In this document: positions 2,582 to 56,680 of the stretch, piece by piece
How positions within the stretch are numbered: position 1 is the stretch's first letter
Layout of the letters: each line of letters begins with the position of its first letter
Assembly: GCF_036924645.1 (NCBI RefSeq)
Contig: NZ_JAZHRX010000001.1
Coordinates: 2,108,001 to 2,172,000 of the forward strand
Direction: 5' to 3'
From: Bradyrhizobium sp. AZCC 2176
GTDB lineage: Bacteria; Pseudomonadota; Alphaproteobacteria; Rhizobiales; Xanthobacteraceae
DNA: 64,000 bases
Made by a program: the position numbers and the translations under genes
Notes under the pieces: generated by a model
The model's input: only the letters and a program-made list of their open reading frames with translations
What the model was told of the DNA's origin: nothing
The model's database searches: none

Positions 2582-2607
2582 GGATGGTGTTCGCCACACA
2601 TACCGCT

Positions 2608-2708
2608 GTCATTCCGGGATGGTCCGAAGGACCAGACCTCAGATGCGCACTGCGCATCGGGGAATCTCGAGATTCCGGGTTCGATGCTTTGCATCGCCCC
2701 GGAATGAC
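2608..2708. repeat. palindromic intergenic repeat, family A, copy 1
   Basis: The element starts with GTCATTCCGGGATGGTCCG and ends with CCCCGGAATGAC, so its ends are inverted repeats. It has an internal GGAATCTCGAGATTCC palindrome. A second copy lies at 9000-9082 in the opposite orientation and shares the outer arm, the GGTCCGAAGGACC stem and the central palindrome, while the distal loop differs. It separates the binding-protein and permease genes inside an operon, so it is probably transcribed and folded. Confidence 0.8.
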
Positions 2709-2723
2709 GGAGAGAAAATTCGC

Positions 2724-39368: not shown

Positions 39369-39548
39369 AGTCTGAGCCGAGCGCAGCGCGGCCGCGAACG
39401 GCCATGCCGAACGGGTATCAGGCACCACAACATATGCCGCGCGAAGCCCGGCGCCGATGCATTTGGCTAGGCCGGCGACGTGCCAGGTAAGATCCGGTGC
39501 GATCGCCGCGAAAGGAGCGTGCCCGCCCGGCATTTCATCATTGTACAA
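39369..39548 (-). pseudogene. PLP-dependent aminotransferase (MocR-like) fragment
   Basis: About 60 codons read YNDEMPGGHAPFAAIAPDL and TWHVAGLAKCIGAGLRAAYV, which includes the Lys of an aminotransferase class I/II active site (GLAKCIGAGLR). Neither end of the gene is present. It joins directly to the VapC remnant, which shows a recombination junction near 39350. Confidence 0.55.
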
Positions 39549-39665
39549 TTCGATTTGACATTATGAATGCTTCAATGTGGTACGACCGAAAAGGCGCTCG
39601 GGCGCTGCTGCAAGACGTGCGGCCCGCCCCACCAAAAACGCTCGATACGCAGGAGGAACACCACG

Positions 39666-40637
39666 ATGATCGATCGACGTTCACTGTTGCTTGGCGGCGC
39701 GCTTGCTTCAATCGCGCGTCCGGCGCTCAGCCAGACGAAGTACCCCAACCGCACCGTCACGATGGTGTCTCCATTTGCTGCGGGAGGCCAATTGGAGCCA
39801 ATCGGCCGTATCATCAGCAAGCACATGCAGTCAGTGCTCGGACAAGCTTTCGTCATTGAGAATAGGCCCGGCGCGGGCGGGACTATTGGCGCTCAGTATG
39901 TGACACGCTCGGCGCCGGACGGGAGCACTCTTTTGCTCGGAACGACAAGTACCTTCGTGATTGCTCCGTACATCTTCAAACCGCAGCCCTACGATCCCCT
40001 CGTCAGTCTAGCGCCGATCATCGCCTTAACCGAAAACGCCACCGTCTTGATCGCTAGCGAAAAGAGCGGGTTCAAAAGCCTCAAGGACCTTTTGGAAGCC
40101 GCCAAGCAGAAGCCCGCCAACGTGACCGTCGCCTCGGCAGGCAACGGAAGCTTCCCGCACGTGTTCTCCGAACTATTCTCCTCGCTCACCGACGTTAAGC
40201 TAACTCATATCCCGTACCGCGGCGGCGCGCCTGCGATGAACGACCTGATCGGTGGACAAGTCGACATCTTCTTCGAAGTCGTGCCGAGCGCGATCCCTCA
40301 GATCCAGTCCAAGCAGGCTTTTCCTCTTCTCGTCAGCGGCAACAAGCGCGTGCCGCTGCTTGCCGACGTGCCCACCGCAGCGGAAATGGGCTATCCGGAT
40401 CTCAATCTCACGTCTTGGAATGGGCTTGCCGCACCTGCCGGTACGCCAGCGTCGGTTATAGAAATACTAAACAAAGAATCAAATGAAGCGCTTCGATCCG
40501 AAGAGATGACGGTTTACCTCGACCGTTTGGGAATTTCGGCGATTGGCGGATCTCCCAAGGACATGGCCGCGCGCATGGCGCAGGAATCCGCGATCTACAA
40601 GCGACTCATCGAGAGTAGAGGGATCACTGTCCAGTGA
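39666..40637 (+). CDS. tripartite tricarboxylate transporter substrate-binding protein (TctC/Bug family)
   Basis: The 323-aa protein has an RR-containing signal (MIDRRSLLLGGALASIARPA, ALSQT cleavage). The Bug fold follows with YPNRTVTMVSPFAAGGQLEP, ENRPGAGGTIGAQYVTRSAP and the later YRGGAPAMNDLIGGQVDIFF. Such proteins bind carboxylates. No TctA/TctB partners are nearby, as is usual for the many orphan Bug genes of this group. GGAGG precedes ATG 39666. An aromatic or hydroxy acid ligand is possible from context. Confidence 0.85.
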   Translation: MIDRRSLLLGGALASIARPALSQTKYPNRTVTMVSPFAAGGQLEPIGRIISKHMQSVLGQAFVIENRPGAGGTIGAQYVTRSAPDGSTLLLGTTSTFVIAPYIFKPQPYDPLVSLAPIIALTENATVLIASEKSGFKSLKDLLEAAKQKPANVTVASAGNGSFPHVFSELFSSLTDVKLTHIPYRGGAPAMNDLIGGQVDIFFEVVPSAIPQIQSKQAFPLLVSGNKRVPLLADVPTAAEMGYPDLNLTSWNGLAAPAGTPASVIEILNKESNEALRSEEMTVYLDRLGISAIGGSPKDMAARMAQESAIYKRLIESRGITVQ

Positions 40638-40768
40638 CGAAGTCGCGCGGATCGCGACCATCGTGACAAGGCAGGCCGCGTTTCATTGCCTTCCAGAGAC
40701 ATGCCGAGCCGAAGAGCCGCACCGTCGGATAATCCGAGCCAGGCAGCAGTTACGGCCCAGCTGGTTGA

Positions 40769-42517
40769 TTAGTGGGTCGTCTTGGATACTTCAAGAATAA
40801 GGCGGTCGGACCGGGGCAGGTCGAATCGGGGCTCGATGCCCAGCAGCGGCGCGATCCGCTCGATCACCTTGCCGCCGGTGGGCACCGCGTTCCAGCCCGA
40901 GGTGATGAAACCATGGGTTTCCGGCAGCGCCTGCGGCTCGTCCAGCATGATCAGGATCTGATATTTCGGATCGTCGCAGGGCATGATTGCGGTGAACGAG
41001 TTCAGAACGCGCTTTTTGGCATAGCGGCCGTTGATGACCTTCTCGGACGTGCCGGTCTTGCCCCCGATGTAGTAGCCCTTGACGTCCGCCTGGCGCGCCG
41101 ACCCGACCTCCGCATTGAGCCGCATCAGATACCGCATCTTGTCGCTGGTCTCCGGCTTGATGACGCGCTTGGCCATCGCCGCCGCTTCGGATTCGCTGCG
41201 CTTCATGAATGTCGGCGGAATCAGATAGCCGCCGTTCATCAACGCGTTGATGCCCATCACCGCCTGGAGCGGCGCCACCGACAGGCCCTGGCCGAACGCG
41301 ATGGTGACCGTGTTCAGCTCCCCCCAGCGTCGCGGCACCAGCGGCGCCGCGCTCTCCGGCAACTCGGTGCGCAGCCGCGTCAACTGGCCCATCTTGGCCA
41401 GGAACGCCTTGTGCGCCTCGACGCCCTGGCTGAGCGCGATCCGCGCCGCACCGATATTGGACGAATAGGTGAACACTTCCTTGGTGTTGATGAACCGTCC
41501 GAGCGAGTGGCTGTCGTGGATCGTGAACTTGCCGTAGTGCAGATTTCCCCGCGCATCCCACGACGAATTCAGGTTGATCTTGCCGGAATCGAGCGCCATT
41601 GCCAGCGTGAACGCCTTGAAGGTCGAGCCCATCTCGTAGAGGCCGGTGGTCAGGCGGTTGATGCGGTCGGGATCGTGCGCTTCCATCGGATTGTTGGGAT
41701 CGAAGTCCGGCAAGGAGACCATCGCGACGATCTCGCCGGTCTTGACGTTGGAGACGATGCCGGAGGCGGCCTTGGCGTGAAACTTGTCCTTGGCCTTCAG
41801 CAGTTCGTCGCGCAGCGCATGCTCGACGCGCAGATCCACCGACAGCTCGATCGGCTTCTGCAGCCGGTCGGTGGCAAAGCCGGCGCGGTGGAGATCGGCA
41901 AGTCCTTGGTTGTCGAGCCACTTCTCCAGGCCGGCGATGCCCTGATTGTCGATGTTGACGAGACCGATGAGATGGGCGACCTCGTTGCCGGTCGGGTAGA
42001 CGCGCTTGTTCTCGCGCAGGAAGCCGATGCCGGGAATACCGAGCCTGTGGATGTCCTGCTGCTGCTTCGCCGTAATCTCGCGCTTCAGCCACACGAAACC
42101 CTTGCGCGACGACAGGCGCTCGCGCACCTCGGCTCCGTCGAGATCGGGCACGGTCGCGGTCAGAAGCTCGATCGCCTCGTCCTTGTCGATGATGCGGCGC
42201 GGCTCGCCAAACATGCTGGCCGCCTTGACGTCGGTCGCGAGGATCGCGCCGTTGCGGTCGACGATATCGGGACGCGCGGTCGCAACCACTTCCTGCGAGG
42301 CGACGCGACGCGCGCTGTGCGCGTCGGCGCCGATCGCAAACATCACGAGCCGGCCGCCGATCAGGGCGTAGACCAAGGCAAAGACGAGCATCGCAAGGCC
42401 GACACGCGCCCGCGCCTTTGCGGCGCGATCGACGTTCCGCCCGTAGAGCAGACTGCGGATCAGCCGCTGCCGCCAGGGCTCGGTTGGCGTGGACTTGGCC
42501 GGCGTCGGAGCGCTCAT
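40769..42517 (-). CDS. peptidoglycan D,D-transpeptidase, FtsI/PBP2-like (paralogue outside dcw context)
   Basis: The 582-aa protein has a short cytoplasmic tail, one membrane helix ([20 protein letters not shown]), a PBP dimer domain and a transpeptidase domain. The transpeptidase motifs are SxxK at Ser298 (MGSTFKAFT), SxN (TYSSNIG) and KTG at Lys487 (GGKTGTSEK). All catalytic motifs are intact. FtsI normally sits in the division cluster between ftsL and murE; here only a frameshifted ftsL precedes it and murE is absent, so this is probably a moved second copy. Confidence 0.85.
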
Positions 42518-42526
42518 TTCTTGTCC

Positions 42527-42876
42527 TCAGGTTGCGCCACGCTCGCGGCTTTGATGGGCTTGAGCCCCAATGGGCTCTGGCTTGCCAGGTCCGAACTTCC
42601 GCGGCGGACGCTCCGGCCCGTTCTTCAGCGGGTGACATTGCGCTCGGTTGACCGCTTTCAGCGACAGATGCCGCTCGGCAAGGCCTTGCAGGCGCAACGC
42701 CGCATCGAGCTTGGGCCATCGGGAGCGCAGCGATGCGATCGCATCGCGTTGCTCGCGGAATTCCGCGTGCAGCCGCAGCCCCTTCTCGGCGCGGGTGCTG
42801 GCGTCCATTTTGATCCAGCAGAGATACTCCGCCGAAGAGACTATCCCGCGATGACCAGGAATTGGATGATGCGCAT
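42527..42876 (-). pseudogene. ftsL remnant, one-base frameshift
   Basis: Reading from ATG 42876 gives MRIIQFLVIAG and then a stop. One base back, the next frame continues SSAEYLCWIKMDASTRAEKG, QRDAIASLRSRWPKLDAALR, LQGLAERHLSLKAVNRAQ and PERPPRKFG. That is the membrane helix, coiled coil and tail of alphaproteobacterial FtsL. A one-base loss near 42847 explains the break. It ends 10 nt before the FtsI paralogue, as in a dcw cluster. Confidence 0.7.
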
Positions 42877-43343
42877 GCGCTAACCAAATCGTATGGGAGC
42901 TGGGGTTCTCCCTCTCCCGGTCGGCGGCGCTTCCGGGCGTGGTCCGCACCGATCGGCACTCGGGCCGAGGTGGTGCTGCAAGGCCACGTACGCCGTCGTA
43001 CCGCCGTGCTGAAGGCGGAAGGTCGGTGCTCGGACGATAGGGGTCGGCCGCTCCTACGTCTGCGGCGTCGCCGCGGCCGGAGAGCAAGGACCAAGCGGCA
43101 TCCTTTAGAACTTCCGTACGGGGATTGGAGGCCTAGCATTGACCGGCTACGCAGCGTTCCCCGAGTTGGACCAAGCATGGGTCCTGATCGGCAGGCGGCG
43201 GGAGATCCAGAATTCTTTGTATCGGACTCACCGCTGTGGACCACCGCGAAGCATCGGCTAACAGGCTCGAATTTACAGAATTGCTGCACTGACTTTGAGG
43301 ACAGTCTCTTTAGGCCCCGCTTGGAGATCATGACATCGAAAGC
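42877..43343. other. 467-base spacer without a recognisable gene
   Basis: Open frames on both strands are arginine-rich and show no family features. I looked for an rsmH (mraW) tail, which would normally precede ftsL, and did not find one. No promoter or hairpin is clear. Confidence 0.4.
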
Positions 43344-43979
43344 TTATTCAGCGTCTGATTGACGTGACGGATGTGCCGTTTGGAAGGCCGGATGAGCCGT
43401 TGCTGAAGACACGACACGATTGATTCGCGGGAAGTTGGAGAGCGATACGCCGAAGCGCTGGGCGGCGTAGACCTGCGGAATCAGGTAAACATCCGCGAGG
43501 CCGGGCGCTGGACCGAAGCAGTAATCTTTGCCGATAATCAGCGACTCGACCGCAGAGAAGCCTTCGCCGATCCAGCGCGCGATCCAGGCGCCAACCTCCT
43601 CCTCCGAGCGGCCAAAGTTCCGACGCAGGTGGTTTAGAGGGCCGATATTGTGCAGCGGATGGACGTCGCAGCCGATGATCGCCGCAACGGCTCTAACTCG
43701 GGCTCGCGCTACCGGATCCTGCGGCAAAAGCGGCGGATCTGGAAAGACCTCCTCCAGATATTCAATGATGGCAGGCGACTGGATCAGCACGCGTTCGCTG
43801 TCGAGCGCCAGACAGGGGACTCGTTGCTGCGGGTTAATCTGGCGATACGTCTCGGTCCGATGCTCTCCGCCGTTGCGCACGAGGTGGATTGGCACCTGCT
43901 CCGGTGCCAAGCCTTTGAGGGCCAGCACTATGCGAAGCCGGTAAGACGATGTCGAGCGCCAGTAGCCGTAGAGTTTCAC
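43344..43979 (-). CDS. maiA: maleylacetoacetate isomerase (zeta-class GST)
   Basis: The 211-aa enzyme isomerises maleylacetoacetate to fumarylacetoacetate with glutathione. It begins [20 protein letters not shown], where SSxR is the zeta-class active-site motif. NPQQRVPCL, LIQSPAIIEYLEE and the C-terminal GPAPGLADVYLIPQVYAAQR follow. The GTG start at 43979 overlaps the fahA stop as GTGA. It is the last gene of the homogentisate operon. Confidence 0.9.
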   Translation of the reverse strand: MKLYGYWRSTSSYRLRIVLALKGLAPEQVPIHLVRNGGEHRTETYRQINPQQRVPCLALDSERVLIQSPAIIEYLEEVFPDPPLLPQDPVARARVRAVAAIIGCDVHPLHNIGPLNHLRRNFGRSEEEVGAWIARWIGEGFSAVESLIIGKDYCFGPAPGLADVYLIPQVYAAQRFGVSLSNFPRINRVVSSATAHPAFQTAHPSRQSDAE

Positions 43980-45289
43980 CCGACAGCTTCCCGGATGACT
44001 GCTCGGCATTCGCCAAAACCGATAGTGACGAAACCCTCGCGCACCCCGCGGGCTCGCAGGATGATCTCGTCGCCATCCTCCAAAAATCGCCGCTCCTCTC
44101 CAGAGGCAAGGCGGATCGGTTGTTGGCCCCCGACGGTGGCCTCGACGAGGCTGCCGCAAGACTGCAGGTCTGGGCCCGATATCGTGCCAGTCCCTAGTAA
44201 GTCGCCTGGCTGCAGGTTGCAGCCGCCGCAGGTATGATGAGCGATCATCTGCGCAACCGTCCAATACATGTGGCGCGTGTTAGAAGCCGAGACCCGGTGG
44301 GGAGCCAAACCAGCCTTGCTCATCCCCGGCGTCAGCATCAGCACGTCAAGCTGGATGTCGAAGCCGCCTTCGCGCTGGTCCGTGTCATCGATAAGGTAGG
44401 CCAGTGGTCGCGGATCGCCCTTCGGCCTGGGAGGAAGAGCGATACGGAATGGCGCGAGCGCTTCGGGCGTGATGATCCAGGGCGAGATCGTCGTAGCAAA
44501 ATTCTTGGCCAAAAAGGGTCCTAGCGGCTGGTACTCCCAAGCCTGAATGTCCCGGGCTGACCAATCGTTCAGGAGGCAGCATCCGGCAACGTGCGCGGCA
44601 GCCTCGCCGACCGGGATTGGTTCTCCGAGCGCGTTGCCGGGGCCGATCCAGACTCCAAGTTCAAGTTCGAAATCGAGCCGGCGAGAGGGACCGAACGCAG
44701 GCTCGGTCGCACCCGGCGCGTTGGATTGCCCATGCGGGCGGCGCACAGCGGTGCCGGACGGGCGGATTGACGAAGCGCGGCCGTGATAGCCGATTGGCAA
44801 GTGCTTATAGTTCGGCAAGAGCGGATTATCCGGGCGAAACTGCTTGCCGATGTTCTCCGCATGGCGGATGCCGACATAGAAGTCGGTGTAGTCGCCGATT
44901 GCGGCTGGCAATTGCAGTGTGCAGGCCGATGCTTCGTACAAGAGAGGCGCGATCGTCCCGCGTTCGGGCTGCCCTTCTGCGAGCAGCTCAGAGAGGCGGG
45001 CCCGCAAAGCTCGGCGCGCCCCACCCCCGAGCGCAAGGAGGCGGTTGAGCGACGTGCCCGCCGCAGCTTCAACTGCTGCTGCTGCTTCGCCGGACAGGAG
45101 GTTGGCTGCTAGCACGGCCGGCAGGTCGAGGATGGCCTCGCCAATCGCGATGCCCGCTCGCGGAGTCTCCCCTCGCGGCGAAAATACGCCGAGCGGCAAG
45201 TTCTGGATCGGGAAGTCCCGATGCCCGTTGGCGGTGGGCACCCAAGAGCGCAGGCCCGCATCGTGGGTGCGGTCGAGTTCCGTCATCAA
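43976..45289 (-). CDS. fahA: fumarylacetoacetase
   Basis: The 437-aa hydrolase splits fumarylacetoacetate into fumarate and acetoacetate. The SH3-like N-terminal part ([20 protein letters not shown]) is followed by the catalytic domain: [17 protein letters not shown] with the catalytic His, [30 protein letters not shown] and the metal/Lys region [20 protein letters not shown]. Its ATG overlaps the hmgA stop (ATGA), so it is coupled to hmgA. Confidence 0.93.
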
Positions 45290-46647
45290 CGGGCCTCCGA
45301 CAGCCGCGGATCGAACTTTCTTTTGAGCTTGCGACCATACTCGCCGTACTGCTTCTGCAAAGCCTGGTGCTCGGCCGCAAAGCGGCTGACCTTCTGTGGA
45401 AAGCGCGTCTCAAACATGAAGGCGAGCGTACCCTCAAGCTTGTGGGGCTTGAGCTCAGCATCAGAGGCCTTCTCGAAGGTATCCGCATCTGGGCCGTGCG
45501 GCAGCAAAGTGTTGTGAAGGGAGGCTCCCCCGGGCTGGAAACCACCTTCAGTCTTGGCGTCATAGACCCCGTAGACCAATCCCATGAATTCACTCATGAC
45601 GTTGAGATGGTACCAAGGCGGCCTGAAGGTGTTCTCCGCTACGAGCCAGCGGTCAGAGAAGATCACGAAGTCGACATTAGCGGTGCCGGGTGTTTCGGAG
45701 GCTGAGGTGAGCACCGTGAAAATCGACGGATCGGCATGGTCAAATAGAATAGGCCCGACCGGAGAGAACTTGCGTAAATCGTACTTGTAGGGTGCGTAGT
45801 TGCCATGCCAAGCGACCACATCGAGAGGTGAGTGGTCGATCGCCGTCGCCCAGATGTTGCCGCCCCACTTTACCAGCAGGGTACCGGGCTCATCGCGATC
45901 CTCGTAAGCGGCCACCGGTGTGAGAAAGTCGCGCTGATTGGCGAGGCAATTAGCTCCGATCGGCCCGCGCTCTGGTAAGGTGAACGCTCCACCGTAATTC
46001 TCGCAGATGTACCCCCGGGCGGGGCCACCTTGCAGGTCAACTGCAAACTTTACTCCCCGCGGTATCACACAGATCTCGCCGGGTTCGACTTCGATGATGC
46101 CGAATTCAGTGCGGAAGAGGAGCCGCCCCTCCTGCGGCACAATCAGCATCTCGCCATCGGCATTGTAGAAGTATTCGTCTGGCATCGAGCGGTTGACAAA
46201 ATAGAGGTGTGCGCCCATGCCCGCTTGTGCGCCCGCGTCTCCCGCCGTCGTCATCGTGCGAATGCCCTCGACGAAGGAGAGCGGCATGGATGGCATCGGG
46301 ACAGGATCCCAGCGCAAAGGCGCAATCGGAGTCTCCGCCTCCTGGGCGGGCGCTGTACGCCACAGACCAATCTCCGCCTTTTTGAACGCGCCCCAGTGCA
46401 TGACGGTTGGACGAATTCGGTAAAGCCAGGAGCGCTCGTTCACAGTGCGCGGCGCGGTAAAGGCCGAGCCCGAAAGTTGCTCGGCATAAAGGCCGTAGGG
46501 ACATTTTTGCGGCGAGTTGCGGCCAATCGGAAGCGCGCCGGGGAGCGCCTCGGTCTCGAAGCCGTTGCCAAAGCCGGACATGTAGCCGGGCGTGATACCC
46601 GAGCCACTCGCAAGCTTTCCATGGGCGGATGGCGTCTGTGCGTTCAT
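45286..46647 (-). CDS. hmgA: homogentisate 1,2-dioxygenase
   Basis: The 453-aa iron dioxygenase opens homogentisate to maleylacetoacetate. Recognisable are [19 protein letters not shown] near residue 23, [27 protein letters not shown] and [20 protein letters not shown], which contains the metal-ligand His/Glu pair. [14 protein letters not shown] follows. The frame is open far upstream, but AGGAAGGG before ATG 46647 fixes the start 5 nt after the MFS stop. Length matches the family. Confidence 0.93.
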
Positions 46648-46652
46648 GTTGG

Positions 46653-48017
46653 CTACCCTTCCTGTTGATGTCTGCGAACGGCCGCGTTCGCGAAAGGTGT
46701 GACAGCGATCAATGTTGCACCAAGGATCAGGAGCACCGCTGCGAACAGAAGGCCCGCCGCAAAGTTTCCTGTGAGATCGCGCAATACTCCAATGACATAT
46801 GGACTGACGATCGATCCCATGATTCCGGCCATGGTGATCAGCGCCAAACCCGCGGGTTTTGCCGCAGCACTTAGGTGGCTCGCGGGGATGGCCCAAAACA
46901 CGCCCAGAGCTCCGTAAGCGCCTGCCGTGGTCAGGATCAGCCCAAGGAAGCGGAAGATCGGATCCGAACCAAATCCCGCCATCAGCCATCCTAGCGCTGC
47001 GAACAGCATTGGCAGAACCGTGTACATGCGCCGGGTGCCGGCGCGGTCGGACATGCGGCTGAGCCAGAGCATGACGAAGCACGCGCATACGGCAGGAATG
47101 CTGGCTAGAAGAGTGGCTGCCGTCGGCGTCCAACCACTTGAAACGTCCTTTACGATCTGTGGAAGCCATGTCGAGATTGCGTTAAGGGACGTGACGAGAC
47201 AGAAGTAGATCAGGGCAAGCGTCGCAATCACGGGTCTCCAGAGCGCCTGGACAACCGCGCGGGTGCTCTTGTCGCCGCCTGTTCTGGAGCCTCCCTCCTC
47301 ATCCGAGATCGCTCGCTCCAGAACCTCGGCCTCGCGTTGGGTGAGCCAGGATGCCTTGGAAGGCCTATCGCTGAGCACGAACCAAGCCGTCACCCCCAGG
47401 ATGACCGAGGGCGCGCCCTCGATGATGAACAACCATTGCCAACCCTTGAGGCCGGCGGTGCCGTCGAGCTGCAAGATCAGCCCCGAGATCAGCGAGCCGG
47501 TAGCAATCGTGAAGGGCTGCCCCACGAGGAACAGGGCGGTCGCACGTGCCCGTCGATGCGCCGGCACCCAATAAGTCAGATAGAGAAGCACGCCAGGCAT
47601 GAGCCCCGCCTCGGCGATGCCGACGATAAAGCGCAGTGCGTAGAGACTATGAGGGCCGACTGCGAGACACGTCAGGCAAGCAGCGATGCCCCACGTCACC
47701 ATGATTCTCGGGATCCAGATCCGCGCGCCGTACTTTGCCAAAGCCAGATTGCTGGGCAGCTCGAAAGCGACGTAGCCGATATAGAAAAGCGAGTTTGCCA
47801 TTCCGAACTGGCTGGCAGTCAGGCCGAGATCGCGGTTCATCGTCAGCGCAGCGAAACCGATATTGATTCGATCGATAAAGCCGACAACGAAAACAATGAA
47901 CAGGAAAAATATCAGCCTGCGATCAACCTTGCGCAGTATGGTCTCGATCTCGTCATCAGGGGGAGCCCAACTAGCCAAACTTGAATCGCGATATGCGTGG
48001 TTCATCGCCGTCGTCAT
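46653..48017 (-). CDS. MFS transporter, anion:cation symporter (ACS) family
   Basis: The 454-aa protein has about 12 membrane helices, with [20 protein letters not shown] and [15 protein letters not shown] at the start, and the conserved [20 protein letters not shown]. Members carry aromatic acids such as 4-hydroxyphenylacetate, tartrate or phthalate. Being cotranscribed with hmgA, fahA and maiA, it probably imports the aromatic substrate of the pathway. GGGAGG precedes ATG 48017. Confidence 0.87.
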
Positions 48018-48296
48018 GCAATTCCTCCCAATCGTTTTTCAATTCGTTAGTTGTTTTGGCATTGCCTTTCTCGACGACTTCCCAGGGCAGCCGTTTCGCA
48101 CGCGGGCCGGCAATCTGTCGAAGGGCAAGGACTCCCTATCCGCCACAATCGCTCGTAGGAGGTCCTGACCGCGAGGGCACATTCGGCTCCTAAGGAAATC
48201 GCAAACGCAATCTCAGCACTGCTTTGGCCTACGGCGCCTGACGGCATACCGGATGCGACGTACCGCGCCGCCGTTACCTCTGCTCCTGAAGGTGTG

Positions 48297-49988
48297 TCAT
48301 CGCTCAATCGGAGCCCGAACCGGAGGATCGCCCAGCGGATTCGGCGGCGCCGGCCGGGGCGCCTTGGCGAAGGGCGGCTGTTGGAGACGCATGAGATGCC
48401 AGGGACTGGGCATCTCTCCGACAGAAACCTCGATGACACTCGGGCCTCCCGCCGCGAAGGCCGATCTGAGGAGCGCTGTGAGACGGCCAGGCGATTCAGC
48501 TCGCTCGTATGGAATCGAGAAAGCCTTAGCGAGAACCGAAAAGTCGGGATTGCACAGATCGACGCCGAACTCGGCCCCAAACAGATCCTTTTGCATCGTC
48601 CTGACGTTTCCGAAATGACCATCGTTGAAGATCACGGCGGCAACGTTCAAGTTGTATTTCCGGGCCGTTGCCAATTCCTGCATGTTCCAACCGAAGCCCC
48701 CATCGCCGTTGAGGCTGATGACGGGTCGGCCCGGATTTCCGACCGCCACGCCGAGCGCCGTCGGGTAACCGAATCCCAGCGTCCCCTGGTAGCCCGGTGT
48801 GATGAAGGTGTTGGGTCCGTAGACCGGGAAATGAAAGCGCCCGAGATAGCCAACTTGAGTCAGATCATTCACAAAGAAACCGTCGTCCGGAAGCGCCTCT
48901 CGGAGCGCATGCAGCCATGAGGCCTGCGGCTGAATGAGGTTTGCTTGTTCATCGGACCAGGCGCGGACCCGGCCAAGGTCAGCCGCGATCACTGAGGGAC
49001 GCCGCGCGACTGCAGCAGCGAGCGCCTTCAGTCCGAGGGCCGCATCAGCCACAATAGCCACATCGGCGCGGCGGGGCGGCTTCCAGGCAGAGCGATCGAG
49101 GTTGATGTAGATATACCGCGCTCGATCTGATGGCCAGGCGGGCTTTCCAACCTGCGTGTCGACGAAACGGCTTCCGACCACGACGACCACGTCGGCATGA
49201 GGAAATACGGCGCGTCCGCCAAGTGCGTTCAGCGCAAGCGAATGCCGGTCTGAGACCGCACCCCGACCGTTTTCACCCATAACGATCGGCGCATCGAGGC
49301 GTTCGGCCAATTCGGCCAGCGGTCCGGAAGCCTTCGCCGCCAATGCGCCGCCGCCAACGTAGATAACGGGAAAAGATGCCTCGTTGAGTAGCTGCGCGGC
49401 TTTCTCTATCGCGAGTGTTTCGGGCTCGTCGAAGCTAGATACCAGCGGAGTGTCAACGAGCGGGATGTCATCCTCCACGTTGAGCAGGTCCTGCGCAACC
49501 TCGAACGCGACTGGCCGAGGTTGGCCGGAGGAGGCTTGCTGCAACGCTTCATGAAGAACAGCTGGGATTTCGACCGTCGCGCTGGGGCGCCCCTGCCACT
49601 TTGTTACCTTTGCCAAGATTTCGGTTTGGCCATTGACCTCATGCAGCAGCCCAACCCCCTTGCCGCGCCCTCCAAAGTTGATGTCACCCGCTATGCAAAC
49701 GACTCGTGAATTGCAGGCGTACGCTGTCGCGAGGCCCGCCATAGCATTGAGGACACCCGGACCAGGAACGACCATGCACGCACCGATGCGCCCGGTGGAC
49801 CGAGCATAGCCGTCGGCCATGTAAGACGTCGCCTGTTCGTGACGTGGGACAATGACGCGGATATTGTCGCGGCATTGCCTCAGGCCCTCAAAGGCCCAAT
49901 CCAGCTGAATACCTGGGATGGCAAAAACATCCCTGACGCCCTCAAGCGCGAGCTGTCTTGCAAGGGCCGTCCCACCAGTCTGTCTCAT
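48297..49988 (-). CDS. thiamine-diphosphate enzyme, benzoylformate/arylpyruvate decarboxylase or acetolactate-synthase-like
   Basis: The 563-aa protein has the three ThDP-enzyme domains. The catalytic Glu is in PRHEQATSYMADGYARSTG. The middle domain has FPVIYVGGGALAAKASGPLA, and the Mg/ThDP motif is GDGGFGWNMQELATARKYNL. The annotation family is broad (acetolactate synthase-like). Its position between a 2-hydroxyacid dehydrogenase and an aldehyde dehydrogenase suggests decarboxylation of an aryl-2-oxo acid to an aldehyde, which is inference. A -35-like TTGACA lies upstream at 50048-50053 on the minus strand. Confidence 0.78.
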   Translation of the reverse strand: MRQTGGTALARQLALEGVRDVFAIPGIQLDWAFEGLRQCRDNIRVIVPRHEQATSYMADGYARSTGRIGACMVVPGPGVLNAMAGLATAYACNSRVVCIAGDINFGGRGKGVGLLHEVNGQTEILAKVTKWQGRPSATVEIPAVLHEALQQASSGQPRPVAFEVAQDLLNVEDDIPLVDTPLVSSFDEPETLAIEKAAQLLNEASFPVIYVGGGALAAKASGPLAELAERLDAPIVMGENGRGAVSDRHSLALNALGGRAVFPHADVVVVVGSRFVDTQVGKPAWPSDRARYIYINLDRSAWKPPRRADVAIVADAALGLKALAAAVARRPSVIAADLGRVRAWSDEQANLIQPQASWLHALREALPDDGFFVNDLTQVGYLGRFHFPVYGPNTFITPGYQGTLGFGYPTALGVAVGNPGRPVISLNGDGGFGWNMQELATARKYNLNVAAVIFNDGHFGNVRTMQKDLFGAEFGVDLCNPDFSVLAKAFSIPYERAESPGRLTALLRSAFAAGGPSVIEVSVGEMPSPWHLMRLQQPPFAKAPRPAPPNPLGDPPVRAPIER

Positions 49989-50228
49989 TCCACACCCTTC
50001 GTTGGCTCGCGCTTTGACAAGGAGGTACTAATGCGGTTGACGTACAATGTCAAATATAATTCATAATAATCAAATCACACGCGAGGCCGGCAAACTTGCC
50101 AACCCTTGCGAGGCCGTAGGGCAGACTTCCACACTGGGCCGCGTTCTTGCCGATAGTGGATCGAGAGCGGCGAGTAACCGCGCCTCGCCTACCAGATCAC
50201 TAATTAAACAATGTGATAAGCTATTTGA
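49989..50228. promoter_or_regulatory. AT-rich promoter region of the ThDP-enzyme gene
   Basis: On the minus strand, TTGACA (50053-50048) is followed 17 nt later by TAGTAC, a fair sigma-70 promoter for the ThDP-enzyme operon. The motif ATTTGACATTGT here recurs in the promoters at 39553, 53625 and 54618. The remainder is AT-rich without genes. Confidence 0.45.
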
Positions 50229-51662
50229 TTAGATACTAGTTGCTATTGTGAGCTTTTGTGGAGGCAGCGATGACGGCTCAGAACCGATTTTGCCGGGATT
50301 CATTATTCCGCGCGGATCGAGCGCACTTTTGATGAGGTGCATTGCGTCGAGTGCCGCCTCGCCGTGCTCTTCCAAGAGATATGGCAGCTTCGCGATACCG
50401 ATCCCCTGTTCGCCACTTACCGTGCCTCCGTACGCGATGGCCCGGTGGTTCAAGCGCTCGATCATCGCGCGGACCGCTTCCCTCTGGCTCGGCAACTCCG
50501 GGTCGACGAGGTAGGCAACGTGAAAGTTGCCGTCGCCGACATGACCAAGGATCTTGCCATCGATCCCGGAAGCTTCGATCTCTGACTGCGCGGCCGCGAT
50601 GTTATCCGCCAAACGCGAAATCGGGACGCAAACATCCGTGCGCCAGACTTCTGCACCCGGCTTCCAAGCACTCGTTGCATAGAGCGACTCATGCCGAGCC
50701 TGCCAAAGCCTGCTCCGTTCGGCAGGGTCTCGCGACCAAGCAAAGTCGAGTGCCCCGCACGTCGCCGCGATCTCGCCGAATGCGCGCGCCTGCTGATCCA
50801 CATGATCAGGCGCACCGACGAACTCAACGAACAGGGTGGGCGCCACCGGTAATCCAAGCTTCGAGTAGCTGTTCGCCATCCTGATGGACAGCGAATCCAT
50901 AAATTCAATGCGCGCGACATCGAGCCCCATGTGCATCGCGTCGACCACTGAAGCGATTGCACCCGCGGTCGCTCCAAACGGGCAAGCTCCAACACACACC
51001 GCTTCCGGGATCGGGTGCAGGCGAACGGTAAGTTCCGTGAAGATGCCGAGTGTGCCCTCCGATCCGACGAAGAGCCTGACCAAATCGTAGCCACTTGAAG
51101 ATTTCCGCGCGCGCGACCCCACTCGTGTCACCCGCCCGCCGGCCAATACAACGCGGGCGGCGGTCACGGTTTCGCGCATCGTGCCATAGCGCACCGCATT
51201 GGTGCCGGACGCGCGCGTCGAAGCCATCCCGCCGATGGTAGCGTCCGCACCAGGATCGATTGCGAAGAACAGGCCCTTGTCGCGCAGATGCTGATTGAGT
51301 TGCTTGCGCGTCACGCCAGGCTGCACCACCGCATCAAAGTCGTCCTCATTCACAGCCAAGACCTGGTTCATGCGCGTCAGGTTCAAAGCTATTCCGCCTC
51401 GGACGGCCAGGATGTGCCCTTCAAGCGAGCTCTGATTGCCGTGCGCGACGATCGGCACGCCGAACTCGTGGCAAGCCTCAAGCACCCGGCAGACGTCGTC
51501 CTCGCTCTCAGCGAACACGACTGCATCCGGTAGAGCGGGCGGCAGTCGGGACCAATCTTTGCCGTGTTGTTCGCGCACCGAGCCGCCGGTGGCTAAGCGC
51601 TCCCCGAGAGATGCCCGCAGGCGTTCGAGACATGAGGTCAAGCCTGTATTGTGAAGTGTCAT
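50229..51662 (-). CDS. FAD-linked D-2-hydroxyacid dehydrogenase (GlcD/D-LDH, VAO fold)
   Basis: The 477-aa flavoprotein has the FAD-binding 4 domain (PIVAHGNQSSLEGH, FFAIDPGADATIGGMASTRA, SGTNAVRYGTMRETV, YDLVRLFVGSEGTLGIFTEL) and the FAD-oxidase C domain with GHVGDGNFHVAYL and the final SGEQGIGIAKLPYL. This is the D-lactate dehydrogenase (cytochrome) type, which oxidises D-2-hydroxy acids. In this operon an aryl-lactate or mandelate-like substrate is inferred. Confidence 0.83.
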   Translation of the reverse strand: MTLHNTGLTSCLERLRASLGERLATGGSVREQHGKDWSRLPPALPDAVVFAESEDDVCRVLEACHEFGVPIVAHGNQSSLEGHILAVRGGIALNLTRMNQVLAVNEDDFDAVVQPGVTRKQLNQHLRDKGLFFAIDPGADATIGGMASTRASGTNAVRYGTMRETVTAARVVLAGGRVTRVGSRARKSSSGYDLVRLFVGSEGTLGIFTELTVRLHPIPEAVCVGACPFGATAGAIASVVDAMHMGLDVARIEFMDSLSIRMANSYSKLGLPVAPTLFVEFVGAPDHVDQQARAFGEIAATCGALDFAWSRDPAERSRLWQARHESLYATSAWKPGAEVWRTDVCVPISRLADNIAAAQSEIEASGIDGKILGHVGDGNFHVAYLVDPELPSQREAVRAMIERLNHRAIAYGGTVSGEQGIGIAKLPYLLEEHGEAALDAMHLIKSALDPRGIMNPGKIGSEPSSLPPQKLTIATSI

Positions 51663-51821
51663 GCTTTTGATAACCTTGCTCGAGGCCGTCGTGATCGATT
51701 CAGCGGTCAGAACGGCGCGGGTTGACGCGGATACAGCGGTTCTAGCCGGTCATGCGCAGTCGCAGAGCGCACTTTCGCAATCTTCAGCATTAAAGATCTT
51801 TAGCCGCATGCGTTTAGGGCC

Positions 51822-53264
51822 CTACAGCGGCAAGCCAGGTGGCGTCTGGACCCCATGCACCGCTTTGTACTGGAGAAAGCTCTCGATGCCATAGCGACCA
51901 TTCTCGCGCCCGAAACCGGACCAGCCGCAGCCACCAAAGGGCGTGGCGTAGTTTTGCGGGGCGCCGTTGATCGAAACTTGCCCAGTCCTCAGACGTCTAG
52001 CGACTTCAACACCGCGTTCCCGGTTCGAAGTCCAAATTCCGCCCGAGAGTCCGAACCTCGTCGCGTTGGCGAGTTCGACTGCCTCGTCGAGACTGCTGTA
52101 GTGCAGCAGGCTGAGGACAGGCCCGAACGCCTCCTCTCGCACGACCTCCATGCCGGCCGTCAAATCTGTTAGAACAGTCGGGTACATGTAGTAGCCGCGC
52201 GTGAGCCCCTCCGGTGCACCAGGGCCGCCGATGATCGCGCGAGCTCCCTGCGAAAGCGCTTCCGTAATCATTCGCCGGACGCGATCGCGCCCCGCTCCGC
52301 TTGCCAGTGGCCCGATACGGGTTTCCGGCGCGAGAGGATGTCCCATGACCCAATCTGCACCCAACGATTGACAGAGAGCCTCGATTTCAGTTCTGGCCTC
52401 CATCGGTACGATCAGACGGGTCTGGGCAACACAGACCTGCCCACTGTTGCTGAAACAGGACCGCAGCACGCCAGCTACTGCCGCTTCGAGGTCGGCGTCG
52501 TCCAGTATGACGGCTGCAGATTTGCCACCAAGTTCGAGCTTGACCTGCTTGATATGCTCCCCCGCCAAGGCGGCTACTTTACGTCCGGCCCTCACAGAGC
52601 CCGTGAAGCTCACGAGATCGATCTCGGGATGCTCCACCAGAGCGCGGCCAGTCTCGCCGTCTCCGAAAACCACATTCACGACCCCGGCCGGAACACCAAC
52701 CTCATCGAGCACTTCCACAAGGGCCCGTGCTGTCGACGGGGCTAGCTCGCTCGGCTTCACGATGACAGTGCATCCCGCGGCGATAGCTGCGCCGACCTTT
52801 GCGATTATCTGATGCAGCGGCGCATTCCATGGCGTGATAGCGGCTATTACGCCGACTGGTTCGCGCCATACGACTGAGCTCGCGGCGTTCTCCTCGAACG
52901 CAATCGCCTGAAGCGCCTCCACCATCGCAGCAAGGTTCCGGATCGGCATCGGGACCTGAAATTGCCTGCCGAACCACAACGGGCTTCCAATCTCACGTGC
53001 AAGGGTCTCGGCGAAAAGCTCGGTTCGGGCTTCGAGCCTCTGGGCAATGTGAAGAAGCAATGCAGCCCTGTTCTCCAGACTGGAGCCGCGCCAGACGGCA
53101 AGTGCACGCCGCGCAGAGCTGACTGCTGCGTCCACTTCAGCCGGCGACGCGCAGCTCACCTCAGTCAGGATCTGCTCTGTGCTGGGATCGATGACCGGGA
53201 GCATGCGGCTGGAGGTCCCACGGTGCCAGCCCCCATCTATCCAATGCGCATCGACAGGTCTCAC
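51822..53264 (-). CDS. NAD(P)-dependent aldehyde dehydrogenase
   Basis: The 480-aa ALDH has the base Glu in LELGGKSAAVILD, catalytic Cys in NSGQVCVAQTRL, FTGSVRAGRKVA and AAITPWNAPLHQIIAKVGAA. It is likely to oxidise the arylaldehyde made by the ThDP enzyme to the arylacetate or arylformate, inferred from context. The start is GTG 53264, overlapping the upstream stop as GTGA, so it is coupled to a 101-aa ORF. Confidence 0.83.
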   Translation of the reverse strand: MRPVDAHWIDGGWHRGTSSRMLPVIDPSTEQILTEVSCASPAEVDAAVSSARRALAVWRGSSLENRAALLLHIAQRLEARTELFAETLAREIGSPLWFGRQFQVPMPIRNLAAMVEALQAIAFEENAASSVVWREPVGVIAAITPWNAPLHQIIAKVGAAIAAGCTVIVKPSELAPSTARALVEVLDEVGVPAGVVNVVFGDGETGRALVEHPEIDLVSFTGSVRAGRKVAALAGEHIKQVKLELGGKSAAVILDDADLEAAVAGVLRSCFSNSGQVCVAQTRLIVPMEARTEIEALCQSLGADWVMGHPLAPETRIGPLASGAGRDRVRRMITEALSQGARAIIGGPGAPEGLTRGYYMYPTVLTDLTAGMEVVREEAFGPVLSLLHYSSLDEAVELANATRFGLSGGIWTSNRERGVEVARRLRTGQVSINGAPQNYATPFGGCGWSGFGRENGRYGIESFLQYKAVHGVQTPPGLPL

Positions 53265-53566
53265 GGGCGCACCTCGTCCGGAGCATTGAAGCGTGCGAAC
53301 AGGGCCGGCAATGCGCAGCGCAAGGTCGTGACGAACGTCGACAGACGCATCGAGTGCCTTGCCCCTTGCACCTGCCCGAGCAGCACCTCGAGCTTGTTCG
53401 GCTCGCGTGTGCCCGGCAACAAGCGCTGGAATTCAGAAGGGTGACGGAGACCAGGGGCCATGTTCCGAGCGGCCGAGTCCAGCATGCTCATGCAGGTCTC
53501 AAGACCAATTGAGCTGACGTACACGTCTGCCCCAACCCGGAACGCCCTAGCGACCGCTCGGCCCAT
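53261..53566 (-). CDS. small hypothetical protein coupled to the aldehyde dehydrogenase
   Basis: The 101-aa ORF (MGRAVARAFRVGADVYVSSI...) has GAGGAGGG 5 nt before ATG 53566; the frame is also open to 53584. It ends in a 4-nt overlap with the dehydrogenase. No family is recognised. It reads GLETCMSMLDSAARNMAP and TREPNKLEVLLGQVQG and has no membrane segment. It may be a small subunit or simply a leader ORF. Confidence 0.5.
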   Translation of the reverse strand: MGRAVARAFRVGADVYVSSIGLETCMSMLDSAARNMAPGLRHPSEFQRLLPGTREPNKLEVLLGQVQGARHSMRLSTFVTTLRCALPALFARFNAPDEVRP

Positions 53567-53724
53567 GGTACCCTCCTCGTTCATCGAATGCGGTTCTGTG
53601 GATCGCTACTATGATCCGAGGATTTTGTCAAATTTGATTATACTATTACAAATAATGCGGTTTGCTATGCGCTTTGACCGCGCGAAGTGTTAAATGTTGT
53701 GCCAGAGGGTGGGACGAGGTGAAC
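53567..53724. promoter_or_regulatory. divergent promoter region between aldehyde-dehydrogenase unit and IclR gene
   Basis: An AT-rich stretch (53620-53660) contains TTGTCAAATTTGA, whose minus strand reads TTGACAA with ATTTGACA overlapping, the same ATTTGACA block found upstream of three other catabolic genes. As IclR regulators bind A/T-rich palindromes in such divergent spaces, this is a candidate site. Confidence 0.45.
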
Positions 53725-54552
53725 ATGAAGACGGTCGAGAAGGAACAGCGCCATATCCAATCGATCGAGGTCGGCTTTCGTCTGATCGGGGTTCTTGAGG
53801 CGGCGCGGGCCAAGCTTCCTCTGAAGACAATTGCCGAGCGTGCCGGCATGCCGGCCAGCAAGGCTCACCTTTACATGGTGAGCTTTCTACGGCTCGGCCT
53901 GGTGGCGCAGGATCCTGCCACAATGCGCTACGGCCTTGGGCCTTATGCCGTTCAACTCGGCCTTGCGGGATTGCGGCAACTGGATGTTGTCGATCTCGCC
54001 CGAGGGCCAATGGAGGAGTTGCAGCAAAGCGTCGGACTGTCGGTCCACTTATCCATCTGGGGAAACATGGGACCGACGATAGTCGCGAAGTCCGATGGTG
54101 AACTCGACGTCCCGATGATTATCAAGGTCGGCCATGTACTTCCGTTGCTCACGTCGGCTACGGGACGGGTCTTCCTGTCACTGCTGCCCGCAGCGTCGTT
54201 GGCGCCGATACTTCACCGTGTTCCCACGCCCTCGGCGGCGGCCCGCGCGGTGATCGAAGAGGCAAAGCGAGAGATGGGTCGTAACGGCGTGACCACGTCG
54301 GACAGCCGCGTGCACGAGGGATTTGCCGCCGTCTCTGGCCCCATATTCGACCATTCCGGCGCTCTCGCCGCGAGCATGACGCTCATTGGGCAACGCTCGC
54401 ACGTGCCGCTCGACGGGCGCGGCTCAATTGTCGAGAAGCTGAAGGCCGCCTGCGACCTAGTTACGCGCGCGATGGGGCGGGAAGCCGCTGCTTCCGATGC
54501 CTTACAGGAGGACCCTGGTCCCAGACGGACGGCTAGATCGACGCGCGCCTGA
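53725..54552 (+). CDS. IclR family transcriptional regulator
   Basis: The 275-aa protein has an IclR winged helix (IQSIEVGFRLIGVLEAARAK, then LPLKTIAERAGMPASKAHLY and MVSFLRLGLVAQDP). The ligand-binding domain is typical (VGHVLPLLTSATGRVFLSL, AAVSGPIFDHSGALAASMTL). GAGGTG precedes ATG 53725; the frame is open to 53662. IclR proteins commonly control aromatic catabolism, including homogentisate and protocatechuate routes. It is divergent from the aldehyde-dehydrogenase operon. Confidence 0.85.
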   Translation: MKTVEKEQRHIQSIEVGFRLIGVLEAARAKLPLKTIAERAGMPASKAHLYMVSFLRLGLVAQDPATMRYGLGPYAVQLGLAGLRQLDVVDLARGPMEELQQSVGLSVHLSIWGNMGPTIVAKSDGELDVPMIIKVGHVLPLLTSATGRVFLSLLPAASLAPILHRVPTPSAAARAVIEEAKREMGRNGVTTSDSRVHEGFAAVSGPIFDHSGALAASMTLIGQRSHVPLDGRGSIVEKLKAACDLVTRAMGREAAASDALQEDPGPRRTARSTRA

Positions 54553-54619
54553 CTCTGACAAATGGGCACCATCCAAGTGCTGCACTGTCACTTCAGCCGC
54601 CTGCAGCGCGAGCCGTCAT

Positions 54620-54649
54620 TTGACATTGACTAATTGAATTCGTTAATAT
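54620..54649 (+). promoter_or_regulatory. sigma-70 type promoter of the FAD monooxygenase gene
   Basis: TTGACA at 54620-54625 and TAATAT at 54644-54649 are separated by 18 nt, near consensus. The start codon is 155 nt further on, so a long leader is implied. The -35 lies in an ATTTGACATTG motif that recurs in this region. Confidence 0.55.
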
Positions 54650-54803
54650 ACGACGGCTTTCCAGCCGCTATCAGGTGCGCATGACGCTCCAGTAAGGACG
54701 CATCCGGCAGGCCTCGCGAAGCGCGCGGGCGCTCGGATCACCGAGCACCCCATCATGTCGTTCGTGAACGCGCACGGTCGCGCCAATTAATTGGGAGAAT
54801 GCG

Positions 54804-55997
54804 ATGAAGCAGCAAAGAATCACTGTTATCGGCGCCGGCATCGGCGGGCTGGCCGCCTCATGTGCGCTCTTGCAGAGAGGGTTCGATGTCGAGGTTTACG
54901 AGCAAGCAGAGGTTCTCGGCGAGGTCGGCGCAGGGGTGCAGATCTCGGCGAACGGCGCAAAGGCGCTAATAGATCTGGGACTGCGCGACAAGATCAGCGC
55001 GGTCGCTTGCGAAGCCTCTTCGAAAGCCGTTCGCATTTGGAATACCGGAAAGGAGTGGAAGCTGTTCGACCTTGGCGTCGACTCGATAGAAAGATTTGGC
55101 GCTCCGTATTGGAGCCTCCATCGCGCAGACCTGCACGGCGTTCTCCTCGATGCAGTCCGTGCAAGGAAAGCCGACGCCATTCACACGGGAAAGAAGTGCG
55201 TCGAAATCAAGAGCGAACCGGGCAAGGTCCATGTTCGCTTTGCTGATGGTTCGTCCGCAACTTGCGATGCGCTGGTCGGCGCTGACGGTGTCCATTCGCA
55301 GATTCGACAATCGCTATTAGGCCCCTCCAAGGCACAGTTCACTGGCCTTATGGCTTGGCGCGGAACCATACCTATGGAGCGCTTGTCAAAAGAACTTCGA
55401 AGACCGATTGGCCTTAACTGGATCGGTCCTGGAGCGCATGTCATCACATACCCGATCCGAAGCGGAGAGCTTCTAAACTTTGTTGGCATCGTCGAGCGAC
55501 CGGAATGGCAGGTTGAATCATGGTCGACGCGCGGCACAAAAGAGGAATGTGCGGCAGATTTCGAAGGCTGGCACCCGCTCGTTCTAGAAATTATCAGCCA
55601 ATTGGGCACTCCATACAAATGGGCACTTTGTGGTCGCGAACCGCTGCAGCAATATGCCTATGGGAACATCTGCTTGATTGGGGATGCGGCGCATCCGACT
55701 CTTCCATTCCTTGCTCAGGGCGCTGTAATGGCCCTTGAAGATGCCATAGTGCTTGGCCGGTGCTTCGTGAAATACCCCTCGCCCGAGCACGCATTTAAAA
55801 GATTTGAAGAACTCCGCGTTGAGCGCACATCTTCCATGGTCCGCGGAGCATCGGAAAATGCTTCGCGCTTCCATAGCGCCGATCTGGCGGATCCCAAATT
55901 GGCAGAGAATTACGTTGCAAGAGAGTGGCAGCCGGAACGCGTGAAGAAGCGTTATGATTGGCTCTTCGAATACGATGTAAACACAGTCACCGTTTAG
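54804..55997 (+). CDS. FAD-dependent aromatic monooxygenase (salicylate/3-hydroxybenzoate 6-hydroxylase type)
   Basis: The 397-aa class A flavoprotein monooxygenase has the GxGxxG nucleotide fold (ITVIGAGIGGLAASCALL), the DG motif (CDALVGADGVHSQIRQSLLG) and the GD motif (YGNICLIGDAAHPTLPFLAQ). LGEVGAGVQISANGAKAL is typical of salicylate and 3-hydroxybenzoate hydroxylases. It inserts one oxygen into a phenolic acid with NAD(P)H. If it hydroxylates 3-hydroxyphenylacetate at C6 it would make homogentisate for hmgA; this is inference. It starts at ATG 54804 with GGGAG upstream. Confidence 0.83.
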   Translation: MKQQRITVIGAGIGGLAASCALLQRGFDVEVYEQAEVLGEVGAGVQISANGAKALIDLGLRDKISAVACEASSKAVRIWNTGKEWKLFDLGVDSIERFGAPYWSLHRADLHGVLLDAVRARKADAIHTGKKCVEIKSEPGKVHVRFADGSSATCDALVGADGVHSQIRQSLLGPSKAQFTGLMAWRGTIPMERLSKELRRPIGLNWIGPGAHVITYPIRSGELLNFVGIVERPEWQVESWSTRGTKEECAADFEGWHPLVLEIISQLGTPYKWALCGREPLQQYAYGNICLIGDAAHPTLPFLAQGAVMALEDAIVLGRCFVKYPSPEHAFKRFEELRVERTSSMVRGASENASRFHSADLADPKLAENYVAREWQPERVKKRYDWLFEYDVNTVTV

Positions 55998-56494
55998 TGC
56001 TCGGCATGAGCGCAGCCCCCTTCCAAGGGGGGTCGAGTCGCCTCGACCAAAGCAATGTCAACAAAGAAGCCCCAGAATCAGAAATATGTACCGTCCCTCG
56101 TGACGCTCACAGGGCTGGTTGGCGAAGAGCTTGCCTTCAGCAACGCACAGCGTTTGACCTGCAAAGTCTACATGAGCAGCGCCTCATCCTCAAAAATTGC
56201 CAGACCATGTTCTGATCAAGAAGCTGCACCAAAACACCTGAGCCTTCCGACGCGCCCGATCGCCGGCACGGGATCAGCCGTCGTCCGGATGATCGAGGGA
56301 TGGCTATCGATGCGAGCCAAGTCATGCAGCGATGGCATTTCCGTTCGTAACGAATTCGTCATCAAAGACTTCGGGCTGGCTCGACTGCTCGTCGCGAAAG
56401 CTAAATCGACAGCACCGGACAGATCTCGCCTCTCATAGCCACAGTCGGTCCGTTCGGTTGGCGATGAACCTTAAATCGTGAACGCGATTACACG
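55998..56494. other. 497-base spacer without a recognisable gene
   Basis: A plus-strand ORF of 127 codons (56055-56438) and shorter ones have no family resemblance, no domain-like pattern and no clear ribosome site. The composition is lower in GC than the flanks. It is probably decayed DNA between the monooxygenase and the DUF2130-like fragment. Confidence 0.4.
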
Positions 56495-56680
56495 ATTTCA
56501 TGTCCTTCAAGCGCTCGATCGCGTCGTCGCGATCCTTGATCTGCGTTTCGTACTCGTCCTTGAGCGATTGCTCGGAGAGCTGCTTTTCAAGCTGCACCTG
56601 CTTGATCCCGTTCTTCAGCTCATCGCGCTCCTTTTCAATGGCGCCAACCGCTTCGGTCTGCTCCTTGAGAGAAGAGCAAG
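56495..56680 (-). pseudogene. DUF2130-like coiled-coil fragment
   Basis: The minus strand reads EKERDELKNGIKQVQLEKQL, SEQSLKDEYETQIKDRDD and AIERLKDMKS with no start. The IERLKDMK step is where the coiled coil of DUF2130 proteins joins their conserved KLSTKMVGE domain, but here the sequence changes to CNRVHDLRF. It is a truncated inner piece fused to the end of the LysR remnant. Confidence 0.45.

Follow-up and report, generated by a model that had tools for sequence, protein, structure and literature searches.

A putative acquired module for homogentisate formation from hydroxyaryl-lactates or arylpyruvates in Bradyrhizobium sp. AZCC 2176

A nine-gene cluster for the catabolism of aromatic compounds lies in a 64,000-nucleotide stretch of the genome of Bradyrhizobium sp. 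AZCC 2176 (the window; positions 2,108,001 to 2,172,000 of contig NZ_JAZHRX010000001.1). In the reading that we prefer, to which we give roughly even chances, the cluster is an acquired catabolic module that leads from hydroxyaryl-lactate or -pyruvate through hydroxyphenylacetate to homogentisate, possesses its own hmg copy, and most likely serves a meta-hydroxylated substrate. A hydroxyaryl-lactate, or the arylpyruvate itself, would be taken up, and a flavin adenine dinucleotide (FAD) dehydrogenase would oxidize hydroxyaryl-lactate to hydroxyphenylpyruvate. A thiamine diphosphate (ThDP) enzyme would decarboxylate this product to hydroxyphenylacetaldehyde, which an aldehyde dehydrogenase (ALDH) would convert to hydroxyphenylacetate. 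A one-component flavin monooxygenase (FMO) would then hydroxylate the ring to yield homogentisate, and HmgA, MaiA, and FahA would degrade homogentisate to fumarate and acetoacetate. The 3-hydroxyphenyl series is the likeliest source of substrates because the host 4-hydroxyphenylpyruvate dioxygenase (HPPD) would already turn 4-hydroxyphenylpyruvate into homogentisate in one step; an additional decarboxylase, dehydrogenase, and hydroxylase would be most useful for a compound that HPPD does not accept. We infer the substrate of every upper enzyme, the order of the steps, joint transcription, and regulation by the IclR protein. The module is a variant of known homogentisate catabolism and not a new kind of system.

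Profile scans of the window proteins found an open frame and a family match for each of the nine genes named in the original prediction, all of which are thus present. The starts of HmgA (46647), FahA (45286), and IclR (53725) were revised. For HmgA, FahA, and MaiA, the NCBIfam equivalog cutoffs served as curated thresholds. The conserved unit includes a tenth gene, encoding a TctC-type protein, which lies outside the region first described. The features are as follows.

39567-40637, plus strand: TctC-type periplasmic binding protein (PF03401, 206 bits), part of the conserved unit
43344 to ~43980 (start approximate), minus strand: MaiA, maleylacetoacetate isomerase (TIGR01262, 264 bits; cutoff, 171)
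43976-45286, minus strand: FahA, fumarylacetoacetase (TIGR01266, 555 bits; cutoff, 375)
45286-46647, minus strand: HmgA, homogentisate 1,2-dioxygenase, the second copy in the genome (TIGR01015, 668 bits; cutoff, 511)
46653-48017, minus strand: HpaX-like carrier of the major facilitator superfamily (MFS) (TIGR02332, 448 bits, under the cutoff of 615)
48297-49988, minus strand: ThDP-dependent 2-oxoacid decarboxylase-like enzyme, PRK08266 (NF006122, 663 bits; cutoff, 571)
50229-51662, minus strand: LDHD-like D-2-hydroxyacid dehydrogenase (FAD) in which Gln replaces the catalytic His (8jdc, 460 bits)
51822-53264, minus strand: ALDH, proposed hydroxyphenylacetaldehyde dehydrogenase (PF00171, 493 bits)
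53725-54552, plus strand: IclR-type regulator (PF01614, PF09339)
54804-55997, plus strand: single-component class A FMO of 397 amino acids, proposed to form homogentisate (nearest solved relatives, 8rqh, 8x38, and 8uiq)

The nine-gene block and the TctC gene recur with their order kept in a second genome of the genus, G630. Three segments of the window (43284-46845, 48285-49987, and 50263-56011) aligned with G630 DNA at 84 to 87% identity, and the TctC segment (39532-40657) aligned at 93%. In G630, the TctC gene (92 to 93% identical) adjoins the MaiA gene, FahA is 88% identical to the window protein, and the MFS gene is missing save for a remnant. Positions 40657 to 43284 of the window, which carry an FtsI-like gene, are also missing from G630, and the conserved block stops 14 bp past the FMO stop codon. 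Among 265 genomes of the genus, a ThDP protein at >90% identity was found, besides the host, in G630 alone (93%); the next matches, at 60 to 62%, were in five more genomes and at a second host locus. Close matches to FMO (95%) and HmgA (91%) occurred in the same two genomes, with FMO at 58 to 59% in three more. Because gene order is kept in G630 and ThDP, FMO, and HmgA co-occur in the same 2 of 265 genomes, we regard the nine genes as one unit of shared inheritance, beyond chance association. Transfer of the block as a cassette is plausible, since the neighbors of the cluster in G630 include a conjugation gene, TrbI, and a helicase domain of the Strawberry-notch type (positions 752 to 3090 of locus L107). 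Two further observations concern the flanks. The FtsI-like penicillin-binding protein gene is 80% identical to a copy at 4.06 Mb, and ~160 bases at 56490-56658 are 90 to 93% identical to 11 Bradyrhizobium plasmids, 10 of which have an annotated DUF2130 gene there.

The assignment of HmgA, MaiA, and FahA to the homogentisate lower pathway is well supported and agrees with the original prediction: all three proteins passed their equivalog cutoffs, and HmgA keeps the His/Glu/His metal stretch when aligned with the structures of its bacterial and human counterparts (3zds and 1ey2), these residues presumably being the metal ligands. The lower enzymes are those of tyrosine catabolism (HPPD, HmgA, and FahA). 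HPPD had been described as absent, which holds for the cluster but not for the genome: a separate copy (378 bits; cutoff, 277) lies at about 2.073-2.078 Mb together with a second HmgA and a second FahA, ~76 kb from the cluster HmgA. The two HmgAs are 70% identical, and the two FahAs are 46% identical. A search of 397 genomes found nearer relatives of the cluster HmgA, at 77 to 83%, in nine genomes that belong to different families within the order; in eight of the nine, the adjoining FahA is 64 to 72% identical to the cluster FahA. Given the separate HPPD/HmgA/FahA locus, the cluster appears to be a second, dedicated homogentisate module with its own entry, apart from the tyrosine pathway. Two loci in other genomes of the order (L094 and L095) hold hmgA-fahA-maiA with an IclR homolog and TctC; TctA- and PdxA-like open reading frames (ORFs) were seen there by eye, and no HPPD was noticed by eye (no model scan was made).

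The upper enzymes can be placed in classes from their sequences, and for the ThDP enzyme the genomic company of its relatives suggests a role. The protein exceeded the cutoff of NF006122/PRK08266, a family titled only "hypothetical protein." Its Glu51 and GDG motif are invariant, and Asn455 is present in at least 90% of the alignment rows, all of these being presumed functional residues. Benzoylformate decarboxylase was considered as an identity and rejected: the best family was NF006122/PRK08266, and acetolactate synthases outranked that enzyme in the PDB list. Besides the window and G630, 30 loci were compared (19 from one genome scan, 10 including the second host locus, and 1 on an Aminobacter plasmid), in stretches of 6 to about 50 kb; given these limited lengths, absent neighbors mean little. 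An ALDH homolog (44 to 53% identical to the cluster ALDH) lies directly downstream of the ThDP gene in 12 of the 30 loci, and an HcaE-type ring dioxygenase is nearby in 13. GlcD-like FAD dehydrogenases and HisC-like aminotransferases are each found in eight (a ninth aminotransferase at 35%), HpaD with HpaE in two, and an aromatic aminotransferase with PobA in one. The two homoprotocatechuate clusters, whose ThDP proteins are 60 and 62% identical to that of the window, contain HpaD (436 bits; cutoff, 321) and HpaE (765; 638) in L110 and HpaE (771; 638) and HpaR (146; 121) in L078. Since HpaE with HpaD or HpaR passes the cutoffs there, the acid formed in these clusters is probably an arylacetate. 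In a 25-row tree, the window protein clustered with the Rieske and HpaDE types (94/94, slightly below the starred support level), and the Aminobacter protein fell outside that group.

The relatives of the ThDP protein combine with genes that supply 2-oxo acids and with genes for ALDH and arylacetate cleavage, which fits an arylpyruvate decarboxylase. This company supports the ThDP and ALDH steps, in which arylpyruvate would become arylacetaldehyde and then arylacetate, as originally predicted; the preceding dehydrogenase step is doubtful because of a lost His, as described below. Mandelate, also named as an entry compound, is rejected on chemical grounds, since its route ends in a benzoate and not in homogentisate. 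The PRK08266 clusters (HcaE/HcaF dioxygenase and a short-chain dehydrogenase/reductase [SDR]) resemble the host cluster in having a homologous ThDP protein, and often a homologous ALDH, that would feed aromatic breakdown. They differ in using a ring dioxygenase, or homoprotocatechuate cleavage with HpaD/HpaE in two cases, where the host cluster has FMO and homogentisate. The second host locus (L079, host positions 5183001 to 5203000) combines a PRK08266 ThDP protein (62%) with a PRK06126 FAD hydroxylase, an HcaE/HcaF-like dioxygenase, and an SDR, and also holds an IclR-like ORF and TctC genes; similar gene sets occur elsewhere in the host's family and in Roseomonas, Variovorax, Alcaligenes, and Ramlibacter loci.

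FMO is a one-component enzyme of the 3-hydroxybenzoate 6-monooxygenase (3HB6H)/NicC/tropone-monooxygenase group. Among its nearest solved relatives are tropone 2-monooxygenase (8rqh, 278 bits) and 6-hydroxynicotinate 3-monooxygenase (8uiq, 214 bits), which act on other substrates, and its score for 3HB6H (NF006021) was 290 bits, under the cutoff of 459. His212 and Tyr216 are invariant in a 29-row alignment and aligned with His and Tyr in all 12 proteins that exceed the 3HB6H cutoff; this class A enzyme thus has a pair placed equivalently to His213/Tyr217, which available excerpts describe as important in 3HB6H (PMC5472690 and PMC6043778). Unlike 3HB6H, with which it shares 29 to 31% identity, FMO has Pro301, as do all 28 other rows, where all 12 true 3HB6Hs have Gln (before YxAQG; Q305 in Martelella), and the cluster has HmgA instead of a gentisate dioxygenase.

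The neighborhoods of FMO relatives were compared at 28 loci (42 to 59% identity). Gentisate-dioxygenase-like cupins adjoin six of these relatives, so the group probably produces ring-cleavage substrates of the 2,5-dihydroxy type; the three cupins scanned scored 192, 221, and 322 bits, all under the gentisate dioxygenase cutoff of 442. An FAH-family hydrolase is adjacent in seven loci, and others contain hydroxycinnamoyl-CoA genes, UbiD decarboxylases, or molybdenum (Mo) hydroxylases; the closest tree neighbor, L083 (100/98), sits among UbiD and Mo-hydroxylase genes. Of the lower-pathway genes, L130 has FahA (49%) ~8 kb from the FMO relative and L126 has a MaiA-like gene (46%); no others were found at these loci. 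IclR homologs (43 to 51%) pair with FMO relatives in L083, L086, L137, and L192, the last pair being accompanied by TctC (62%). Taken together, members of the group probably hydroxylate phenolic acids at the para or ipso position and are linked to varied lower pathways, that of the host lineage being the homogentisate pathway. We know of no member of the group that makes homogentisate. The originally predicted hydroxylation of 3-hydroxyphenylacetate thus suits the enzyme group, while homogentisate as the product is deduced from the position of the gene, and the substrate is doubtful.

Homogentisate-forming FAD hydroxylases have been purified before. To judge from their titles, reports describe a 3-hydroxyphenylacetate 6-hydroxylase from Flavobacterium (1991), reportedly with a larger subunit of ~63 kDa, and hydroxyphenylacetate hydroxylases from Rhodococcus erythropolis (1996). 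The closest parallel in arrangement is mhaAB with hmgABC of Pseudomonas putida U (with a likely homolog in B. xenovorans LB400), in which hydroxyphenylacetate is converted to homogentisate beside an hmg cluster. MhaAB is described, in the available part of the source, as a two-component enzyme with a flavoprotein of ~560 residues and a 60-residue partner (PMC3053370). The host cluster instead has a one-component FMO of 397 residues, 14 bp after which the conserved block ends (MhaB was compared by description only), and an upper decarboxylase/dehydrogenase module; small ORFs are present in the gaps between the genes. HpaH/HpaC of Delftia acidovorans also gives homogentisate without HPPD and is likewise two-component; the block has a single FMO gene (HpaHC was compared by description). 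Constructs with the Delftia genes in plants and hpaHC clones from Ruegeria and Halomonas in Escherichia coli reportedly fail to produce homogentisate (PMC9338888). Among the best matches in the open-licence PMC literature, no upper module of this type coupled to homogentisate was found.

Several observations weigh against the proposed route. Within the limited stretches compared, HmgA, FahA, and MaiA were not found at any of the 30 ThDP loci outside the window and G630, and HmgA was not found at the 28 FMO-relative loci; evidence for the coupling of the upper genes to homogentisate therefore comes from two genomes of a single lineage. The main counterexample is the Aminobacter locus (L116), where the ThDP gene (52%) adjoins an aromatic aminotransferase, PobA, and CHA aldolase, a gene set that would fit a C6-C1 (arylglyoxylate) route. 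Hydroxycinnamoyl-CoA lyase and UbiD genes beside several FMO relatives point to hydroxybenzoates, and an FMO relative in genome G702 (L142, 48 to 49%) lies inside a ThDP/HpaDE cluster, where homogentisate is not an evident product. A single transcript would have to span gaps of 159 to 279 bp between the upper genes. Terminator-like sites were at chance level (13 versus 12.0 expected; standard deviation [SD], 3.6) and promoter-like sites were somewhat over it (8 versus 3.4; SD, 1.9), neither being decisive; the strongest gap palindrome (54727-54750) lies between IclR and FMO.

The dehydrogenase presents a further difficulty. Its nearest solved relative is mouse LDHD (8jdc, 460 bits), which available excerpts describe as a general D-2-hydroxyacid dehydrogenase with D-phenyllactate among its substrates (PMC10589216) and as losing its activity when the base His is replaced by Ala. 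The cluster enzyme retains Arg347 and the metal ligands His398, His405, and Glu442. The base His443 is replaced by Gln in both the window and G630 copies and is His in 29 of 29 other homologs (the best matches that were given loci, from a search that matched 226 of 248 genomes of the family). Both cluster copies also carry Trp351-to-Leu and Ser365-to-Arg replacements, seen in none of the 29, and an Ile407-to-Ala change is shared with two of them. The enzyme would either use another base or differ in substrate or reaction, and its substrate is doubtful. It may instead have a new function other than D-2-hydroxyacid oxidation, with, for example, free arylpyruvate or another phenolic acid as the entry compound. 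The replacements at positions 443, 365, and 351 favor this explanation, but the retained Arg347 and metal ligands suggest a metal-bound 2-hydroxycarboxylate substrate, and we consider it rather unlikely.

Another explanation keeps the module and assigns it para substrates: FMO would attack 4-hydroxyphenylacetate at C1, and migration of the side chain would give homogentisate (4-hydroxyphenylacetate 1-hydroxylase chemistry, EC 1.14.13.18). The solved relatives of FMO include enzymes whose name or established chemistry marks them as ipso-hydroxylases (decarboxylative vanillate 1-hydroxylase and 6-hydroxynicotinate 3-monooxygenase) and that share its Pro where 3HB6H has Gln, the MFS carrier resembles the 4-hydroxyphenylacetate permease HpaX, and 4-hydroxyphenyl-lactate is the commoner natural compound. 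Against this, host HPPD makes the route redundant for 4-hydroxyphenylpyruvate, and the enzyme described for the C1 reaction in the available excerpts is the two-component HpaH/HpaC (PMC9338888). We judge para substrates to be unlikely.

A C6-C1 route appears quite unlikely. Hydroxymandelate or hydroxyphenylglyoxylate would pass through hydroxybenzaldehyde and hydroxybenzoate to gentisate, formed by FMO and cleaved elsewhere, and the hmg genes would be mere neighbors. A true gentisate dioxygenase is encoded at 2.98 Mb in the genome (610 bits; cutoff, 442), so FMO may form gentisate. The host shows no 3HB6H match at an E value of 1e-130 or better, leaving that job vacant, and the Aminobacter ThDP neighborhood and the gentisate-like cupins and hydroxycinnamoyl-CoA genes adjoining FMO relatives agree with such a route. 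It leaves the co-inherited HmgA, FahA, and MaiA unexplained, however, the closest ThDP relatives belong to Rieske/arylacetate clusters, and FMO falls under the 3HB6H cutoff with low identity and the Pro-for-Gln difference from all 12 true enzymes. The Aminobacter locus, on plasmid pAA01 of Aminobacter aminovorans, also has Rieske and VanB-type genes and resembles a pathway for hydroxyphenylglycine or arylglyoxylate. A patchwork in which unrelated aromatic genes serve no joint function, as the gaps between the upper genes, the loss of MFS in G630, and the differing relatives of the upper and lower parts might indicate, is very unlikely given the shared gene order, the open frames throughout, and the joint presence of the genes.

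The module from hydroxyaryl-lactate or arylpyruvate to homogentisate thus remains our preferred reading. The boldest reading, which we hold to be decidedly improbable, combines a one-component homogentisate-forming hydroxylase that differs from those with described genes, perhaps acting by ipso attack with side-chain migration, with a ThDP side-chain-shortening module and an LDHD-type enzyme that lacks its catalytic His. If correct, the preferred reading would supply a gene for one-component entry into homogentisate, the bacterial hydroxylases with described genes that are known to us being two-component. The PRK08266 ThDP family, members of which lie next to aromatic ring hydroxylase genes in a number of bacterial groups, would gain a function, and the cluster would offer a natural test of how an LDHD-type enzyme works without its base.

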